Shown here piece after piece: positions 2,020-33,791 of a stretch of DNA of 35,239 nucleotides. Under the pieces are notes generated by a model. The model was not told the origin of the DNA. It saw only the letters and a list, made by a program, of their open reading frames with translations, and did not search any database. Position numbers and translations under genes: made by a program. Origin of the DNA: PVC group bacterium (GTDB taxonomy: Bacteria; Auribacterota; Erginobacteria; Erginobacterales; Erginobacteraceae); NCBI GenBank assembly GCA_003561965.1, contig PWXJ01000033.1, forward strand, positions 1-35,239, written 5' to 3'. Numbering within the stretch: the stretch's first letter is position 1; each line of letters starts with the position of its first letter.

Positions 2020-2049
2020 TTGCCGATTTCCGGCGATATATGGTATAGG
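2020..2049 (+). promoter_or_regulatory. Possible sigma70-like promoter for the chagasin-like gene (TTGCCG-N18-TATAGG)
   Basis: TTGCCG at 2020-2025 and TATAGG at 2044-2049 in the divergent intergenic region, just upstream of ATG 2062. Match is weak. Confidence 0.3.
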
Positions 2050-2061
2050 ATAGTAACATCG

Positions 2062-2539
<478 letters not shown>

Positions 2540-3749: not shown

Positions 3750-3809
3750 ACGTATTCAGCGGGCCGGTGGAGCAGGCATTCCCGGCTGGCCGGCGGAGGG
3801 CACAGACAG

Positions 3810-3831
3810 AATAAACTGTGCTGCCTATTTT
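3810..3831. other. Short inverted repeat GCACAG-N10-CTGTGC between M16 peptidase stop and SBP start
   Basis: GCACAG 3810-3815 / CTGTGC 3826-3831. Confidence 0.45.
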
Positions 3832-3847
3832 CACGGACAGGAATGGG

Positions 3848-6814
3848 CTAGAGATCGGCGATCGGGAATTCTCCTTTCAGTTTGGCGGCGGCGGTCTTTA
3901 GTTTCTCCCGGGAAGCGATCACGCAGACCGGGGCGGTCTTCAAACTTGGGCGGATGATCTCCGCGGCGGCCCGGCGGACCTGCTCTCCGGTCAGGGCGAG
4001 GAGCCGCCGGCGGAACTCCCGGAGCCGGGCCGGGGTGGTCCGCCGCAGGTGCCGGTAGAGGGCCAGCTCCACCGCCTGGCCGGGACGGATCGGGCGGTCG
4101 AGGGTCTTGACCGCCCCGATGATCGCCTGCTCGACCCCGGGCCCGCTCAGATCCATCTCTTTCTGGATATAGTCGTCGATCCCATCGTAAGCCCGGAGCG
4201 TCTCGACGACATTCGGGTCGCGGTAGCTGGCCAGGGCGAACAGACCCCGCAGGGGATGATAAACGGCCGAGCAGCCGTAGGCCCCGCCCCGGACCCGGAC
4301 CGTCTCCCAGAGGTAACCGTAGCTCAAGTTCTGGGAGATCAGCAGAAGGGCGGGTCCGTCGGGGTGGGTATAGGAGACCGCCGGGAGGGCCCGGGCGACA
4401 AAGGCGACCTCGGCGGGGACGGCGACCCCTTCCCGCCGGGGAACAGCGGGAAGTTCGGGGAGGGGCCCTCCTCCCTCCTCTTCCCGGTTCAAATCCGACA
4501 GCAGGGAGCCGTACCATTCCCGGACCGTCGCGACCGCTTTCTCTCCCCCGACCACGGAGAGGGTAACCCGGTTTCTGGCCTGGAGAGAATCCCGGATCCC
4601 CGCCAGCCGGTTCTCGAGACCCCGGGGATCGGCGGCGAAGGCGTCCGGGAGCCGGTCATAGAGCCTCACCTGGTCGAGGCCCCGGAGGGACTCGTGAAGG
4701 GCGCAGTTGCGGTTCAGGCCCCGGGCGGCGCGGGAGAGGGCGAAACTGTTCCCGGCCGGGACCACCCGGCTCTTCAGGGCCACCTTACCCTGGAGGATCA
4801 CGTCCCGGAGACGGTCCCGGTCGGAGAGGTCGCAACGGGTAAGGCGGTCGGCGAGCATCGCCAGCATCTCCGGGAGTTTCCGGTCGAGGGCCCGGCAGAA
4901 GACGGTCAGGTAAGGGCGGAATTCCCGGTGATCCCCGGAGGTCCCGGCGGCGGCGGGGACGGAGTCGACCCCGCCGGAACAGGCGGCCTCCCGGTCGGCC
5001 ATCGCCGCGAAGTCGTAATCGGCCGCCCCCATCTCGCAGAGGGCGTCGGCCAGCAGCGGGAGGTAGGGATATGCCGCCCCGGGCAGTCCCCGGAGATCGA
5101 AGGCGAGGGCGAGGTAGGTGATCCCGTTGCTGAAGACGTCGGTGGCCAGAAACGGCCGGCCGGCGACGGTCTCGACGGAGGTGGAGAGGAGAAACGGCTC
5201 GGCCGGGACGTCGACGCGGGAAAGCCGGGGGAGCGTGGCCAGGGCCTCGGGCGGGTTGGGCGAGGCCTGGAGTTCTTCGAGTTCTACCGCCTGGCGGGCG
5301 ATCCGCCGCCGCTCGCCGGGGGAGAGAGAATCCCTGATCTCTTTCAGTTCTCTCCGCTCGGCCCGCTCCTTCCTTTCGGCCAGCCCGGGATCGGGGGGGA
5401 AGACCAGCAGGACCCGGTTGGGGTTGTCGACCACCAGCTTCCGGAGGCGTCTTTCGAAGTACCCCTCCTCGCTCTCCCAGCGGCGGCGGACTTCCCGGAT
5501 CTGCCGGTTGAGCCGCATCCAGACCAGGGGGTCGCCGGAAGCGGCCCAGGACTCAAAGGCCCGGTCCATCAGCCGCAGCGGATAGTGGCTCTTGATCTCC
5601 CGGGCGGCCAGCTCGAAATTGTGGAAGGAGGACCCGAGCTTCTCCCGGTCGAGGCCCCGGGCGGCCAGCCGGGAGCAGGTCTCGAGGACCAGTTCGAGGA
5701 TCCGGTCCGCCCGGTCTTCCTCGCTCCCCTTCAGCCCGACGGCGAAACAGGTATCCCGCTGGGAGGAGGAATAGCCGGAGTCGGTCAGTTCCTCGCCCAG
5801 CCGGGAGTCGATCAGGGCCTTGCGCAGCGGCGAGGCGGCATTCCCGAGGAGGTAATGGGAGAGGACGTGGAGGGAGAGCGTCTCCACCGGCCGGATGTTA
5901 CGCCCGGCCCGGAAGGCCGCCACCACCGCCGTCTTCGAGCGGGGGTCTTCCGCCGGCCCGACGGGATAAGGCCGCCGGACCAGCCGGGGCTTCTTCCAGG
6001 CCGGCTGGGGGGAGATCGCGGTATCGATAACGGCGCGGGAATACCCGGAGAGATACTCCCGGTCGAGAAACTCGAGGTGGCGGAGGGTGGGGATCGAACC
6101 GTAGATGAAGACCAGGGAGTTGGAAGGGTGGTAGCGGGTCCGGTGATACTCCCGGAACCGCTCATAGGAGAGAGCGCGGATCGCCTCCGGAAGACCGCCG
6201 TAGTCCCGGCCGTAGGCGTTGGCGGGGAAGAGATTCTTCATCATCTCCCGGTCGATGATCCCGTCGAGATCGGAGTAAACCCCTTTCATCTCGTTGTAGA
6301 CTATTCCCTTGTAGATCAGGTTCCCCGAAGGGCCGGGGGGATCGACAAAGGCCAGGTGACGCCCCTCCTGGCGGAAGTGGGCAAGGCTGATCCGGGGATA
6401 AAAGACGGCGTCGCAGTAAACCCCGGCCAGGTTGAAGAAATCCTTCTCGTTGATACTGGCGCAGGGGTAGATGGTCCGGTCGGGATAGGTCATCGCGTTG
6501 AGGAAGGTGGCCAGGCTGGTCCGGAGGAGTTCGACGAAGGGGTCCTTGACCGGATAGCGCCGCGAACCGCAGAGCACGGTGTGCTCGAGGATGTGGGGCA
6601 GACCGCTGTCGTCGGGGGGCGGGGTCCGGAAACCGATGGCGAAGAGGTTTTCCGGGTCGGCGGCGTGGAGGTGGATCAGCCGGCCGCCGCTCTGAATATG
6701 TTCGGCGCCGTACGCCACCGCCCGGGTCTCCGGCAGGGCGGTCACCCGGGTGATCCGGAAACCGTTGATGACCCCGCCGACGGCGAGATCGGGATGGATA
6801 GGGGGGTGTTTCAC
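3848..6814 (-). CDS. M16C metallopeptidase, presequence protease (PreP/Cym1)-like
   Basis: 988 aa; inverted zinc motif HxxEH (HILEH) in GLPHILEHTVLCGSRRYPVKDPF; long two-half M16C layout. Confidence 0.93.
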   Translation of the reverse strand: MKHPPIHPDLAVGGVINGFRITRVTALPETRAVAYGAEHIQSGGRLIHLHAADPENLFAIGFRTPPPDDSGLPHILEHTVLCGSRRYPVKDPFVELLRTSLATFLNAMTYPDRTIYPCASINEKDFFNLAGVYCDAVFYPRISLAHFRQEGRHLAFVDPPGPSGNLIYKGIVYNEMKGVYSDLDGIIDREMMKNLFPANAYGRDYGGLPEAIRALSYERFREYHRTRYHPSNSLVFIYGSIPTLRHLEFLDREYLSGYSRAVIDTAISPQPAWKKPRLVRRPYPVGPAEDPRSKTAVVAAFRAGRNIRPVETLSLHVLSHYLLGNAASPLRKALIDSRLGEELTDSGYSSSQRDTCFAVGLKGSEEDRADRILELVLETCSRLAARGLDREKLGSSFHNFELAAREIKSHYPLRLMDRAFESWAASGDPLVWMRLNRQIREVRRRWESEEGYFERRLRKLVVDNPNRVLLVFPPDPGLAERKERAERRELKEIRDSLSPGERRRIARQAVELEELQASPNPPEALATLPRLSRVDVPAEPFLLSTSVETVAGRPFLATDVFSNGITYLALAFDLRGLPGAAYPYLPLLADALCEMGAADYDFAAMADREAACSGGVDSVPAAAGTSGDHREFRPYLTVFCRALDRKLPEMLAMLADRLTRCDLSDRDRLRDVILQGKVALKSRVVPAGNSFALSRAARGLNRNCALHESLRGLDQVRLYDRLPDAFAADPRGLENRLAGIRDSLQARNRVTLSVVGGEKAVATVREWYGSLLSDLNREEEGGGPLPELPAVPRREGVAVPAEVAFVARALPAVSYTHPDGPALLLISQNLSYGYLWETVRVRGGAYGCSAVYHPLRGLFALASYRDPNVVETLRAYDGIDDYIQKEMDLSGPGVEQAIIGAVKTLDRPIRPGQAVELALYRHLRRTTPARLREFRRRLLALTGEQVRRAAAEIIRPSLKTAPVCVIASREKLKTAAAKLKGEFPIADL

Positions 6815-8243: not shown

Positions 8244-8286
8244 AACCTTGCTCCTCCTTGATCCAGGAGTTTATTAACTTTCCACA

Positions 8287-8322
8287 AAGGACGAAAAAGA
8301 CTTAAAGGACCTAAAGGACACA
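8287..8322 (+). repeat. 9-mer tandem module AAGGACGAA-AAAGACTTA-AAGGACCTA-AAGGACACA
   Basis: Four contiguous 9-nt units after CCACA; second copy with shuffled unit order at 19188-19223. Confidence 0.88.
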
Positions 8323-8341: not shown

Positions 8342-8370
8342 TCCGCCACAGCCCGGAGGGCGACGGCGGA
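8342..8370. repeat. 29-nt REP-like hairpin TCCGCC-ACA-GCCC-GGA-GGGC-GAC-GGCGGA
   Basis: Two-tier stem; 27/29 identical to 13685-13713. Confidence 0.9.
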
Positions 8371-8379
8371 ACTAATTAC

Positions 8380-8421
8380 CATTCCCCATTCCCTATTCCC
8401 TATTCCCTATTCCCTATTCCC
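8380..8421 (-). repeat. Heptamer tandem array (CATTCCC x2, TATTCCC x4) across the mlaF stop codon
   Basis: Six contiguous 7-nt units; on the coding strand the last codons GGA ATA GGG AAT AGG GAA TAG (GIGNRE*) are array sequence. Confidence 0.95.
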
Positions 8422-9161
8422 CGGTCGGGCTGACGGAGGAAGAACTGGCGGACCCGGGGATGATCGGAGGATTCGGCTTCCTCGAGAGTTCCGATAAAGA
8501 TAATTTTGCCCCCGTCGAGCATCAGGATCCGGTCGGCCACGGTCCGGATCGAGTACAGTTCGTGGGTGACCACCACCATTGTCAGGTCCATCAGCCGCCT
8601 CAGTTCAAGAATAACCTGGTCGAGACCGGCTCCGATGACCGGGTCGAGCCCGGCCGAGGGTTCGTCGAAGAAGACCACTTCGGGATCGGCGGCGATCGCC
8701 CGGGCGAAGCCGACCCGCTTCTTCATCCCCCCGGAGAGTTCTTCCGGGTAACGCCGGCCCTGGTCTCCCAGCCCGACCAGGTTCAGCTTCATCCGGGCCA
8801 GGATTCTCCTCTGCTCCCGGTCGCCGATCCCGTACTCCTCCAGGGGGAGGGCGACATTCTCGCCCACGGTCATCGAGTTGAAGAGGGCCCCGCCCTGGAA
8901 GGAGAGCCCGACCCGGTGAAGCAGCCGGCCCAGTTCGTCCTCCTCCATCCTGGTGATGTCCCTCCCCCAGTAGGAGATCGACCCGGAAAGCGGCGGCTGG
9001 AGGCCGACCAGATGTCTCAGCAGCGTCGACTTCCCGCAGCCGGACCCGCCGACCACCACCAGGATCTCCCCGGGGTGGATGTCGAAAGTTATCTCTTCCA
9101 GGATCACGGTCTCGCCGTAACCGGCTTTCAGATCCCGGACCTTGATGATCGGTGATTTCAC
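8400..9161 (-). CDS. mlaF: Lipid-transport ABC ATPase (MlaF-like)
   Basis: Walker A GGSGCGKST; signature LSGGMKKRVGFARAI; Walker B VVFFDEPSAGLDP. Confidence 0.95.
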   Translation of the reverse strand: MKSPIIKVRDLKAGYGETVILEEITFDIHPGEILVVVGGSGCGKSTLLRHLVGLQPPLSGSISYWGRDITRMEEDELGRLLHRVGLSFQGGALFNSMTVGENVALPLEEYGIGDREQRRILARMKLNLVGLGDQGRRYPEELSGGMKKRVGFARAIAADPEVVFFDEPSAGLDPVIGAGLDQVILELRRLMDLTMVVVTHELYSIRTVADRILMLDGGKIIFIGTLEEAESSDHPRVRQFFLRQPDRGIGNRE

Positions 9162-13684: not shown

Positions 13685-13713
13685 TCCGCCATAGCCCGAA
13701 GGGCGACGGCGGA
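13685..13713. repeat. 29-nt REP-like hairpin TCCGCC-ATA-GCCC-GAA-GGGC-GAC-GGCGGA
   Basis: 27/29 identical to 8342-8370; embedded between heptamer-type repeats. Confidence 0.9.
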
Positions 13714-13716
13714 ACT

Positions 13717-13792
13717 GCCCACTGATTACTACTCCCCACTGCCTACTGCCCACTGCCCACTGATTACTACTCCCCACTGCCTACTGCCCACT
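13717..13792 (-). repeat. Heptamer-derived array containing a perfect 38-bp tandem duplication (GCCCACTGATTACTACTCCCCACTGCCTACTGCCCACT x2)
   Basis: Copies 13717-13754 and 13755-13792; array runs up to the adaptor TAG stop (13795-13797). Confidence 0.93.
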
Positions 13793-13794
13793 CC

Positions 13795-15045
13795 CTACCT
13801 GGTCTGGGGATTGAAATCCACCGGGATATCCGGGGAGAGGCGGTCGACCCGGCCGGTCCGCTCCAGGTGGGGGGGGTGGCGCCGGGGCGGGGCGGTCCGG
13901 GGCGTGACCGGCCGGTCCTCCGGGTCGAGGATCTGGACCCGGACGCCGGGGGAGAGGCCGAGCTGGCCGAAGGTCACCACCAGCTCCCCCTCCTCCACCC
14001 CCTCATTGATCACCAGGTATTCCTCCTCCATCAGGCCGACCTCGATCTCGTCCCTCAGTTCGGCGGTATTGTCTTCAGCGACCACGAAAAGGTAGAGTCC
14101 CTTCTGGCCGAGCTGAACGGCGGATGCCGGGACCAGGACGGCGTCCGTCTGGGTGTAGAGGATCAACCGGACGGTGACGTACTGGCCGGGCCAGAGCCTC
14201 CGTTCCGGGTTGGGGACCAGGGCCCGCAGGGCGATCGTCCCGGTGGCCTCGTCGACCAGGTTGTCGATCAGTTTCAGCTCCCCCGGATAGGGGGCGGCGG
14301 GGTCGCCGGGCGGGGTGACCTCAACCCGGAGGGAACCTTCGGCCATCCACTTCCGGACCTCGGGGACCCGGATCTCGGGGAGGGTGAAGTCGGCGTAGAG
14401 GGGGTCGATCGACCGGATCCGGACCAGGGTTCCGCTATTGGCGGTGACCACGTTGCCGGGGTCGATCAGGCGCTTCCCCGCCACCCCCGCGGAGGGGGCG
14501 GCGATCGTGCAGTAGCCGAGATCGACCTCGGCCTGCTCCACCAAAGCCCGGTTGAGGGCGACCTGGGCTTCGGCGGCCTCGACCTGGGTCTGGAGAATGT
14601 CGAACTCCTGGCGGGAGATCAACTCCCGGGCCAGCAGAGGTCGGTTCCGTTCGAGGGTCTGCCGTTTCAGCTTCAGGTCCGCCTCGGCGGAGGCCAGGGA
14701 CGCCCGGGCCCGGTCAAGGGCGGCCCGGTACTCCCGGGGGTCGATGGTGAAGAGGAGGTCGCCCTTCTCGATCTCGGTCCCCTCCTCGAAGTGGACCTCG
14801 AGGATCTTCCCGGTCACCTGGGAGACGATATCGACCGAGCGGGGGGAGACCAGGTTGCCGAAGTTCTCCAGGTAGATCGGGACGTCCCGGGTGACGGCGG
14901 CCGCCGCCTGGACCGGACGGGGCGGGATCTCGGGGGCCGGCTGCTCTTTGGCGCAGCCGAACAGCGCCAGGAGAATCGGAGCCAGCGGGAGCAAGAAAGC
15001 CGCCGGGAAGGGCCGGTGGTTCAGGGGATCCGAGAATTTTTTCAT
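13795..15045 (-). CDS. RND efflux periplasmic adaptor (membrane fusion) lipoprotein
   Basis: Start at ATG 15043-15045 (MKKFSDPL) preceded by GAGGAAA; lipobox ALFGC; GKILEVHFEEGTEIEKGDLLFTIDPREY; TIAAPSAGVAGKRLIDPGNVV. Confidence 0.93.
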   Translation of the reverse strand: MKKFSDPLNHRPFPAAFLLPLAPILLALFGCAKEQPAPEIPPRPVQAAAAVTRDVPIYLENFGNLVSPRSVDIVSQVTGKILEVHFEEGTEIEKGDLLFTIDPREYRAALDRARASLASAEADLKLKRQTLERNRPLLARELISRQEFDILQTQVEAAEAQVALNRALVEQAEVDLGYCTIAAPSAGVAGKRLIDPGNVVTANSGTLVRIRSIDPLYADFTLPEIRVPEVRKWMAEGSLRVEVTPPGDPAAPYPGELKLIDNLVDEATGTIALRALVPNPERRLWPGQYVTVRLILYTQTDAVLVPASAVQLGQKGLYLFVVAEDNTAELRDEIEVGLMEEEYLVINEGVEEGELVVTFGQLGLSPGVRVQILDPEDRPVTPRTAPPRRHPPHLERTGRVDRLSPDIPVDFNPQTR

Positions 15046-15114
15046 CGGGCGTTTCCTCGTCACTTAGATAGTTGGCGGTAACAATCCGGCCGGAAAACCC
15101 GGACCGGGCATATC

Positions 15115-19161: not shown

Positions 19162-19187
19162 TTTACCGGCAACTGGACTTTGCCACA

Positions 19188-19223
19188 AAGGACCTAAAGG
19201 ACTTAAAAGACGAAAAGGACACT
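19188..19223 (+). repeat. 9-mer tandem module AAGGACCTA-AAGGACTTA-AAAGACGAA-AAGGACACT
   Basis: Same unit set as 8287-8322 in different order; also preceded by CCACA. Confidence 0.88.
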
Positions 19224-19227
19224 ATAC

Positions 19228-19255
19228 CACTGCCTACTGCCCACTGCCTACTGCC
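19228..19255 (-). repeat. Heptamer array CACTGCC/TACTGCC alternating x4, directly 3' of the purH stop
   Basis: CACTGCC TACTGCC CACTGCC TACTGCC; purH TGA at 19259-19261. Confidence 0.93.
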
Positions 19256-19258
19256 CAA

Positions 19259-20809
19259 TCAATGGCGGAAGTGGCGGATTCCGGTCATCAGCAGAGTGAT
19301 GCCGTGTTCTCCGGCGGCTTCGATCGAATCCCCGTCCCGGATCGAACCCCCGGGCTGGACGATCGCCTTGATCCCCCTCTCCCCGGCCAGATCGACCACG
19401 TCCCGGAAGGGAAAGAAAGCGTCCGAGGCCAGGACCGCGCCGGCGGTCTCCAGCCCGGCCCGGCCGGCCTTCTCGAAGGCGAGCCGGGCGGCGTCGATCC
19501 GGCTCATCTGGCCGGCCCCGATCCCCGCCGTCGCCTTCCCCTTTCCGAGGACGATGGCGTTGGAACGGGTGTGCTTGCAGACCGTCCAGGCGAAGGCCAG
19601 TTCGTCGATAAGATCCTGATCGGGCTCGGGGCCGGCCGCCACGGCGAGACGGGCGGGGTTCCAGAGTTCCAGGTCGGCTTCCTGGACCAGGAGCCCGCCG
19701 TAAACCGACCGCAGGGCAAGGTGCGGCGGCCGGGGGGAGAGCGGACCCAGCTCGAGCAGCCGGAGGTTCTTCTTCCGGGATAAGGTCCGAGCGGCCTCCG
19801 GGGTGAAGCCGGGGGCGGCGACCGCCTCGACAAAAGTCGAGACGACCTCGGCGGCGGTCGGGCCGTCGACCGGCCGGTTGAAAGCGATGATCGAGCCGAA
19901 GGCGGAGTCCGGGTCGGTGGCCCGGGCCCGGGTATAGCTCTCGAGCAGGTTCTCACCCGCGGCCGCGCCGCAGGGGTTGGTGTGTTTGACGATCACGGCC
20001 GCCGGGCCTTCCAGTTCCAGGACCAGGGCCAGGGCGCTCTCCAGGTCGAGGATGTTGTTGTAGGAGAGTTCCTTCCCCTGGAGCTGGCGGGCGGAAGCCA
20101 GGGAACTCCCGGCGGGGATCCGGAGAGAAAAGTAAAATTCCGCTTTCTGGTGCTGGTTTTCCCCGTAGCGGAGTGACCGTTTTCCCGGATAGAGACCGGC
20201 CAGGGCCCCGGACAGATCTCCTTTCTCTTCCCGTTCCCGGCCGAAGGACAGGGCGATCTTCCGGTCATAACGGGCGGTCAATTCAAAAACCTCCCCCGCC
20301 AGCCGGCGCCGGGTGGCCGGGGATACCTCCCCGCCCGAGGACCGGAGCTCGGCGATCACCTCCGGGTACTGGGCGGGGGCGGCCAGGACGGTCACCGCCG
20401 GATGGTTCTTGGCCCCGGCCCGCAACAGCGCCGCCCCCCCGATATCGATCGACTCCGGCTGGACCTCCCCCCCGCCCTCTCCGGACAAAGGATAGAGGTT
20501 GACCGCCAGCAGGTCGATAACGGGAATCCCGGCCCGGGCGAGTTCGGCAAGATGGGCGGGGTTGTCCCGGAGAGCGAGGAGGCCGGCGAAGATCTTCGGA
20601 TGGAGCGACTTCACCCGGCCGTCGAGCAGTTCCGGAAACCCGGTGTAATCGGACAGGTTCTCAACCGGGAAACCCGCTTGCTCGAGGAAACGGGCGGTCC
20701 CCCCGGTGGAGAGAATCCGGTAGCCGGAATCGGTCAGGGCGGCGGCCAGTTCCTCGACCCCGGTCCGGTCGGAGACGCTGATCAACGCTGTCGGCCTGGA
20801 GGATTTCAT
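19259..20809 (-). CDS. purH: Bifunctional AICAR transformylase/IMP cyclohydrolase
   Basis: ALISVSDRTGVEELAAAL; ILSTGGTARFLEQAG; DYTGFPELLDGRVKSLHPKIFAGLLALRDN; LRYGENQHQKAEFY; KHTNPCGAA; SDAFFPFRD. Confidence 0.98.
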   Translation of the reverse strand: MKSSRPTALISVSDRTGVEELAAALTDSGYRILSTGGTARFLEQAGFPVENLSDYTGFPELLDGRVKSLHPKIFAGLLALRDNPAHLAELARAGIPVIDLLAVNLYPLSGEGGGEVQPESIDIGGAALLRAGAKNHPAVTVLAAPAQYPEVIAELRSSGGEVSPATRRRLAGEVFELTARYDRKIALSFGREREEKGDLSGALAGLYPGKRSLRYGENQHQKAEFYFSLRIPAGSSLASARQLQGKELSYNNILDLESALALVLELEGPAAVIVKHTNPCGAAAGENLLESYTRARATDPDSAFGSIIAFNRPVDGPTAAEVVSTFVEAVAAPGFTPEAARTLSRKKNLRLLELGPLSPRPPHLALRSVYGGLLVQEADLELWNPARLAVAAGPEPDQDLIDELAFAWTVCKHTRSNAIVLGKGKATAGIGAGQMSRIDAARLAFEKAGRAGLETAGAVLASDAFFPFRDVVDLAGERGIKAIVQPGGSIRDGDSIEAAGEHGITLLMTGIRHFRH

Positions 20810-32027: not shown

Positions 32028-33791
32028 TCAACCCCGATTTCCCGTGATTGCCGGAGCCGGCTTCCCGGAGACCTCGATCCCGGCGGGGGTGAAGGTCAGT
32101 TCTTTCTCGATCAGCGCCTCACCCTTCTCTGAAACCGCCAGTTTCAGTTCGGGCTCCCGGTGAGCCAGGGGGCGTCCGGTTACCCGGGAATCGCTCCCCT
32201 GTTCCAGTTCGATGAGCAACTCCGTCCCGGCCCCCGCCCCGCCGGCGGTTATCCGGTCCCGGACCAGGATCCGGCCGGCCCCGAAGTCGATCGACCGCTC
32301 CAGCCGCCAGGCCGAGGTCGCACCGGCCGCCGAGGTCAGCTGGAGAGAAGCTTTCTTCCGGCGGCGGATAAAGTCAATTCCTTTCTTCAGAAGCAGATAG
32401 CCGTAAGGCAGGGACCCGAGGACAGACAACACCGCCCGGGAGAAACGGCCGGGGAAAAAATACCTTCCCCGACGGAATGGGACCTCAATCCTCAGGGGTC
32501 CCCCCTCCCACTCCCCGGCCGGGGCCCCGCCGGAGAGGAGAAAAGAATGAAGGGTGGCCCCTGTGGCCCCTGTGGCCCCTGTGGCTCCTGTGGCTCCTGT
32601 GGCTCCGGCCGCCGGCCGGAGCGGCCGGAGACTGTAACCCCGGTCAAGGCAGCAGGAGTAACCGGATTCAGCGGGTCCGGGGGAAGCGAAGGCCTTGATC
32701 ATCCCCCCCCGGGAGAGCGAGACCACCGCGTAATACCCCTCTTCCCGGACCGCGGCCAACCCGGCCCGGGGAAACACCTTCCGGAAGGGCTCCCTCCCGT
32801 AAGGTAGCGGGGGGTCGGCCGACTGCCAGCACTCCCGGACCTCCCGGGCGTAATCATAAGTCCGCAGGCCGGTGTAGAGATGGTAACAGCGGCTCAAATC
32901 GTCCTGGGCCAGCTGCCGGAGGAGATTTTCGCGGGAGACTCCCTCGGAGAAGAGCCGGCGGGCGACCGGAGAGACCGGGGCCAGCAGGACCGCCGCCAGC
33001 AGGGAGACATAGGAGTTGCCGCAGAGGTTGTACTCCCGCCCGGTGGCGATCTCGGGGTGGACGAAGAAAGAGAGAAAATCCAGGGACTTCAGAAGCGCTT
33101 CCTCCAGGCGCCGGGAAGGGGAAAACCGCCGGCAGCGGGCCAGGTACTCCAGGGTCAGGAAGCCGTAGCCGGTGTCGACCCCGCCCAGCTCGGGAAACCA
33201 GCCTTCCTTGGTCTGCCGTTCGAGCACCGATTCCACCTTCCTTCCGGCCGCCCCGGCCAGGGCGGGATCGCCGAGCAGTTCCCCCAGGCCGTAGAGGGCG
33301 GCGGCGGCCACCGCCTGGTGATTGATCTTATCGAGATCGCCGTGCCGGGCCAGCCAGCCGCCGGCCCGCCGGAAGGTCTCCCGGAGCGATTCCCGGTCGC
33401 CCGGTTCCAGCAGCTCTTCGAGGAGGGGATAGGCCCGGGAGAGGGCGTAGGAGGAGAAGGCGGTGGCGGCGAAACCGTGTTCGCCCCGGTACCACTCGTC
33501 GAACGAACCGTCGGGGTGCTGGAGGGCCGCCCACCGCAGCAGCCCGGCCCGGGCCAGCTCCCCCACTTCGAGCAGCCCCCGCCAGCGGTTCCCGGGGTAA
33601 TCGTTCCGGTAGAGCAGGGCCAGGGTGTAGGCCGCCTCCTGGAGGCGGCCGTTGGCGAAGCCGACGGTCTTGCTCCGCCAGTAGTGGTAGTCGAAGCAAC
33701 CGTATGACGGCGAATGCCGGTCGCGGTCGACCAGCTCCAGCAGCTCCCCGGCCGCCCCGGCCATCTCCCTGCCATAACGGTTCAGGTCCAT
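32028..33791 (-). CDS. Heparinase II/III- or lyase-like alpha/alpha-toroid protein
   Basis: 587 aa; SPSYGCFDYHYWRSKTVGFANGRLQEAAYTLALLYR; repeated helical pattern; C-terminal beta region interrupted by (GAT)n. Confidence 0.62.
   Translation of the reverse strand: MDLNRYGREMAGAAGELLELVDRDRHSPSYGCFDYHYWRSKTVGFANGRLQEAAYTLALLYRNDYPGNRWRGLLEVGELARAGLLRWAALQHPDGSFDEWYRGEHGFAATAFSSYALSRAYPLLEELLEPGDRESLRETFRRAGGWLARHGDLDKINHQAVAAAALYGLGELLGDPALAGAAGRKVESVLERQTKEGWFPELGGVDTGYGFLTLEYLARCRRFSPSRRLEEALLKSLDFLSFFVHPEIATGREYNLCGNSYVSLLAAVLLAPVSPVARRLFSEGVSRENLLRQLAQDDLSRCYHLYTGLRTYDYAREVRECWQSADPPLPYGREPFRKVFPRAGLAAVREEGYYAVVSLSRGGMIKAFASPGPAESGYSCCLDRGYSLRPLRPAAGATGATGATGATGATGATLHSFLLSGGAPAGEWEGGPLRIEVPFRRGRYFFPGRFSRAVLSVLGSLPYGYLLLKKGIDFIRRRKKASLQLTSAAGATSAWRLERSIDFGAGRILVRDRITAGGAGAGTELLIELEQGSDSRVTGRPLAHREPELKLAVSEKGEALIEKELTFTPAGIEVSGKPAPAITGNRG
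32555..32608. repeat. Intragenic 9-bp VNTR-like repeat TGGCCCCTG x3, TGGCTCCTG x2, TGGCTCCGG
   Basis: Six 9-nt units encoding (Gly-Ala-Thr)6 on the minus strand. Confidence 0.95.

Follow-up and report, generated by a model that had tools for sequence, protein, structure and literature searches.

Heptamer arrays beside stop codons in an uncultured Auribacterota bacterium occupy gene ends shared with a sister species, mostly with different units

Previous studies have described tandem heptamers dispersed in bacterial genomes. In Xanthomonas and Nostoc, Rehm et al. (2015) found the G-rich heptamers GGGNATC and GGGGA(C/T)T, mostly in intergenic DNA, where coding-strand repeats lie within 50 bp of stop codons, some overlapping the stop, and non-coding-strand repeats lie upstream of starts; 83% of the repeat positions were common to sister species when searched with the same G-rich pattern (PMC4692102). 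MacGregor (2015) described TAACTGA heptamers in Beggiatoaceae, Cyanobacteria, and Bacteroidetes, which have forward-strand stops in all three frames and are dominated by one unit; most sets lie before starts, in some cases immediately and with no ribosome-binding site, and 13 sets overlap an upstream stop (PMC4679880). Heptamers near stops similar to those reported here are already published for Xanthomonas, Nostoc, and Beggiatoaceae. The short tandemly repeated repetitive sequences (STRRs) of cyanobacteria are also heptanucleotide arrays dispersed in intergenic DNA; the arrays studied here are alike in period and intergenic dispersal, but differ in unit sequences and lineage.

The window, by which we mean the whole analysed stretch of 35,239 nucleotides, is contig 264 within a 2.3 Mb MAG of an uncultured bacterium of the Auribacterota (G000), a sister species of its nearest named relative, Ca. 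Erginobacter occultus (MlaF identity 86-87%). The array census covered 475 kb of G000 in stretches picked for containing arrays, so the array densities are not genome averages; most stretches of the sister species G001 were taken in contig order and a few were chosen. Genes were called by ORF and codon-usage score, with no trained gene finder, and start positions are approximate. Orthologs were compared in 101 G000/G001 pairs and in nine G003 orthologs of array genes, the G003 DNA being partly N. Because related sequences of one genome are not independent, all p-values are only indicative. The window holds four heptamer arrays, all in sense orientation, at the 3' ends of a chagasin-like gene, mlaF, an HlyD-type adaptor gene, and purH:

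2020 to 2496, plus strand: chagasin-family (I42) peptidase inhibitor-like gene (Pfam Inhibitor_I42, 1.8e-28)
2477 to 2525, plus strand: chagasin-like array, five CAGTAGG units, then CAGTGGG and CAATGGG; gives the stop (third TAG) and the residues GSVGSRQ
8381 to 8421, minus strand: mlaF array, four GAATAGG units, then GAATGGG; gives the mlaF stop and roughly the last 3-5 codons
8400 to 8402, minus strand: mlaF stop TAG, the third TAG of its array
8400 to 9161, minus strand: mlaF, ABC ATPase of an Mla-type lipid transport operon (Pfam ABC_tran, 1.5e-30; neighbours MlaD and MlaE)
13735 to 13797, minus strand: adaptor array of mixed heptamers (GAGTGGG, CAGTAGG, CAGTGGG), whose first partial unit, TAGG, is the adaptor stop
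13795 to 13797, minus strand: adaptor stop TAG, the first triplet of its array
13795 to 15063, minus strand: HlyD/RND-type periplasmic adaptor (Pfam HlyD_D23, 8.3e-14)
19229 to 19257, minus strand: purH array (CAGTAGG, CAGTGGG), starting a few bases past the native stop; protein unaltered
19259 to 19261, minus strand: native purH stop TGA, followed by TTGGG CAGTAGG
19259 to 20809, minus strand: purH (AICARFT/IMPCHase; Pfam AICARFT_IMPCHas, 6.2e-107), a counter-example to overwriting

The last codons given in the first-pass annotation were confirmed exactly on re-reading the sequence: GGA ATA GGG AAT AGG GAA TAG in mlaF, TCA GTA GGC AGT AGG CAG TAG in the chagasin-like gene, both within their arrays, and AGG TAG in the adaptor gene, which leads at once into GGAGTGGGCAGTAGG. 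Its statement that the arrays supply the stop and C-terminal residues of the first two genes, and the stop of the third, also stands. Other repeats accompany the arrays. Nonamer repeats (AAAGGACCT/AAAGGACTT) lie in the same gaps as two of the heptamer arrays (8286-8319 and 19187-19220), and a palindromic stretch, TCCGCCGTCGCCCTYCGGGC, with a matching GGCGGA arm lies beside two arrays (8351-8370 and 13694-13713). With four exact copies in the genome, the palindrome is too rare to define the element and was rejected as such.

Period 7 was the commonest tandem period in the array-chosen stretches of G000, with 74 arrays vs. 9 for the next period; block-shuffled G000 sequence gave no period-7 arrays, and none of the 313 intragenic windows contained a heptamer array. 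Two-unit matches to SARTRGGSARTRGG numbered 196 in the genome itself and zero for the reversed control. The arrays are therefore no chance occurrence. Period 7 was again the commonest in G001 (34 of 58 arrays), and among the relatives only members of the same family (G001, G002, and G003) were rich in a three-unit pattern. A survey of 80 named loci (511 kb, other phyla) found period-7 arrays in three loci only, two of them from this family. The main units in G000 are AATGGGG, AATAGGG, AGGCAGT, and AGTGGGC, accompanied by AATCAGT, AATCGGT, and AAGCAGT; a handful of unit families turn up at dozens of genes unrelated to one another, and a single array of the 74 is of the TAACTGA type (AACTGAT). 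The G000 arrays thus resemble the repeats of Rehm et al. in their units of exactly 7 nt at many loci, in the position of coding-strand arrays near stops (0-50 bp) and of non-coding-strand arrays close to starts, and in their occurrence in the same gene context in sister species. They differ in that the units are neither GGGNATC nor GGGGA(C/T)T and often carry TAG in sense, that one genome holds several families, that sister species mostly have different unit families at the same gene ends, that about half of the arrays encode the stop itself, and in belonging to a different phylum. Like the TAACTGA repeats, they overlap upstream stops and some abut starts; unlike them, G-rich units dominate and most arrays lie at stops.

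One rule of placement covers both orientations of the array: the purine-rich strand has its 5' end towards a gene. In 43 co-directional cases, purine-sense arrays hug the upstream stop, mostly at no more than 10 nt from it, and those starting after the stop have a mean relative position in the gap of 0.24; pyrimidine-sense arrays occupy the far end of the gap, beside the start or stop of the next gene (mean 0.85). Some of the latter abut the ATG directly, as in CCCCACTGCCCACTATG. At loci of the same genome such as L184 and L169, pyrimidine-sense arrays touch the ATG with no visible Shine-Dalgarno sequence, as described for the TAACTGA repeats. The gaps have a median length of 28 nt without arrays and 85 nt with them. 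Setting aside 20 nt ahead of each co-directional gene for a ribosome-binding site removed the significance of the closeness to the stop seen for the G000 after-stop arrays (mean 0.44, p 0.16), so that gap compaction may explain part or much of it; the closeness in G001 was still significant (p 0.02, 5 arrays). An inverted partner array, as a MITE or REP-type mobile palindrome with inverted ends would have, was found nearby in only 12 of 58 G000 cases and 1 of 34 G001 cases, so a simple element with inverted ends probably does not explain the polarity. The low count in G000 also led us to reject the idea that inverted pairs of arrays generally serve as terminators.

The arrays are associated with TAG stops. 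Among the 53 G000 genes with an array at the stop, 35 (66%) end in TAG, compared with 55 of 352 other genes (16%, p 1e-13); the corresponding numbers in G001 are 16 of 26 and 101 of 533 (p 4e-6). Of these 53 genes, 28 have their stop inside the array, preceded by 0-12 array codons (mostly under 8), and in the remaining 25 the array begins at or after the stop. The idea that a stop is captured blindly, in whatever frame the array happens to enter, does not agree with the frames used: the first stop of the array serves in 19 of the 28 genes against one third expected by frame-random capture (p 2e-4), which indicates that the array is aligned with the stop, and in 9 of 17 genes in G001 (p 0.08). 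The mlaF and chagasin-like genes, which use the third TAG, are the less usual case. This first-stop bias and the TAG excess could also stem from selection for early termination. A unit containing TAG had been expected to close all three frames, which holds for pure TAG units and for the mlaF and chagasin-like arrays; overall, only 32 of the 74 arrays close the three frames on the purine strand, again unlike the TAACTGA repeats, and 7 close none. Units without a stop (AATGGGG, AGTGGGC, and AGTGGGG) are the consensus of 29 of the 74 arrays, and two genes partly read through their own array, so the broader claim that an array ends translation in any frame fails.

Native C-termini were compared with those of orthologs, as had been proposed for the genes in the window. 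The 14 genes with a comparable ortholog are divided evenly, seven with a changed tail and seven keeping the native C-terminus; the tally consists of nine G003 comparisons, including the chagasin-like gene (six changed, three intact), three genes compared via G001 (LVEI, ELTG, and WWETE, all intact), MlaF (changed), and PurH (intact). The earlier view that native C-termini were overwritten is therefore right for half of these genes and does not hold as a rule. MlaF ends in PDRGIGNRE in G000 and in PDREIGNRG in the sister species, which has a short array at the same place, whereas array-free orthologs end in PDKTIL, PDKTIQ, or PDASIQ, and G031 ends in PDAAIGEQV. GIGNRE had appeared to replace the native end; its Ile and first Gly fit the native PD-x-x-I(-G) motif of the array-free orthologs. 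The conserved Ile is thus kept, the Gly after it is common to some relatives, and the last residues are encoded by the array. Where the array begins, the mlaF genes of relatives read ATA GGG (G031) or ATC GGG (G002). The chagasin-like tail likewise differs from its array-free ortholog, which ends in FTVVAEKSADAGSDIPNPE in G002; the G001 ortholog ends in EEISER, within a different heptamer (CAGTGAG CGGTAAG). The adaptor tail varies among relatives and is uninformative on overwriting. PurH ends in RHFRH or RHFKH in every ortholog whose end was read. Changes relative to G003 include DPRIRYSSR to DPRIRYDRQ and GEFMRRYFNVLEFQ to GEFFRRYLGNGE; the intact ends are RDW, LTGLGYLG (TAA in G003, TAG in G000), and LDYI (TAG in both). 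The stop type also differs at IADGLI (TAA or TGA vs. TAG at such sites), and the LVEI stop is TAG in G001. Downstream of its own stop, the WWETE ortholog in G001 carries a different, irregular heptamer stretch. In relatives that lack the array, the native end is kept at the same position. Downstream of the inspected arrays, no remnant of a native stop could be recognised, the lost tails being too short for such a test. About half of the testable genes thus have a C-terminus altered by an intergenic repeat, a point of relevance to annotation.

The gene ends that carry arrays are shared between G000 and G001. In 101 reciprocal best pairs with usable 3' ends, the array was present in both species at 19, in G000 only at 8, in G001 only at 4, and in neither at 70 (odds ratio 42, p 8e-11); a stricter score on the same pairs gave 10 shared vs. 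14 and 5 unshared, and 72 with neither. At the 19 shared ends, the unit agrees to within one base in only 5 and differs at two or more of the seven bases in 14, compared with an agreement of about 10% at non-orthologous ends. Examples of such swaps are CAGTGGG vs. AAAGAGC and CAGTAGG vs. GCATAGC, and the purH units are CAGTRGG vs. GAATGGG with CAGTRAG. This combination of shared sites and swapped units was unexpected and is not described in the heptamer-repeat literature compared here (PMC4692102, PMC4679880). The sister species thus retain the location and the period of an array although its unit changes. This argues less for a function tied to one sequence, for instance a particular protein-binding site or a quadruplex, than for a process acting on the DNA itself, combined with tolerance at gene borders. 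The pattern also bears on why the published heptamer arrays adjoin stops.

We consider it reasonably probable that the arrays are dispersed intergenic heptamer repeats that fill gaps up to the coding sequences with a fixed polarity, instead of purpose-built stop cassettes. At a 3' end, this polarity would lay an NNN-TRR-N unit on the stop codon; the stop would become, or remain, one of the TAGs of the array, with possible replacement of 0-12 dispensable codons at the C-terminus. The arrays may propagate and be renewed as DNA, one array recombining with another or slipping against it; the seed is possibly a native TAGG-like context at the stop or, for mlaF, a native ATAGGG, and purifying selection on the coding sequence would set their boundaries. 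Supply of a stop would then follow from TRR-bearing units lying over it, a by-product that renders the array edge harmless and not the function that placed the array. We identified no mobilising enzyme or mechanism for the arrays, which counts against this account.

Growth anchored at the stop is possible rather than probable as a general account, but at part of the sites a native TAGG as the anchor competes seriously with the reading above. Here, a native TAGG or a nearby ATAGGG seeds an array that grows 3'-ward, so that the native stop stays first. The first-stop bias agrees with this, as do the native TAG in array-free orthologs of some genes (LVEI in G001, LDYI in G003) and the ATA GGG or ATC GGG at the array start in mlaF relatives. 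However, purely local seeding does not predict a few unit families at dozens of unrelated genes, some sites have TAA or TGA against TAG (LTGLGYLG, IADGLI), and the bias is weaker in G001.

Selection for a stop cassette, in which arrays are kept at 3' ends because TAG units guarantee termination in every frame, seems unlikely. The stops inside arrays and the TAG excess speak for it, a stop is present in the common units as read on the purine strand but absent from the pyrimidine strand of 53 of the 74 arrays, and forward TAACTGA repeats give three-frame stops and end ORFs (PMC4679880). The limited closure of frames, the stop-free consensus units, and the partial readthrough speak against it, and arrays also lie behind intact native stops and beside starts. 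Stop supply had been offered as the reason why arrays are tolerated at 3' ends; opposite-orientation arrays of the same families adjoin start codons and supply no stop, and the Xanthomonas and Nostoc units GGGAATC, GGGGATT, and GGGGACT, which on reading of their sequences appear to have no sense-strand stop, are placed alike (PMC4692102).

An RNA-level element of the 3' UTR, a G-quadruplex or terminator hairpin after the stop, is similarly improbable: units such as GGGGAAT and GGGCAGT give at least four G-tracts per array, and heptamers of the types (GGGAATC) and (GGGGAYT) fold into quadruplexes in vitro (PMC4692102), but the same gene ends carry swapped units without G-tracts (CGGTAAT, AAAGAGC, AAAAGTT), so a quadruplex cannot be the conserved property, and predicted folding in the 120 nt after the stop showed no excess in array-bearing G000 genes (mean z -0.54 vs. 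-0.44 in other genes) and was less in G001 array genes than in others. We are equally doubtful of a cellular process stepping in 7 nt that would repeatedly rewrite fixed gene ends with the reading-frame stop as its anchor, under which orthologous ends keep the array and the period with unrelated units.

Further repeats were seen in and beyond the window. An imperfect tandem repeat with a 120-bp unit (2.8 copies) lies at 372-712, and a 9-nt repeat, GTGGCCCCT, of 5.6 copies lies within a long ORF at 32554-32603. In two more distant relatives, L124 (a Chlamydiae-labelled MAG, about 3780-3960) and L072 (about 3760-3862), the stop of mlaF is followed by heptamers of other families (GTTGTGA and CAGTGAG/CGGTAAG), with sense and inverted arrays together.
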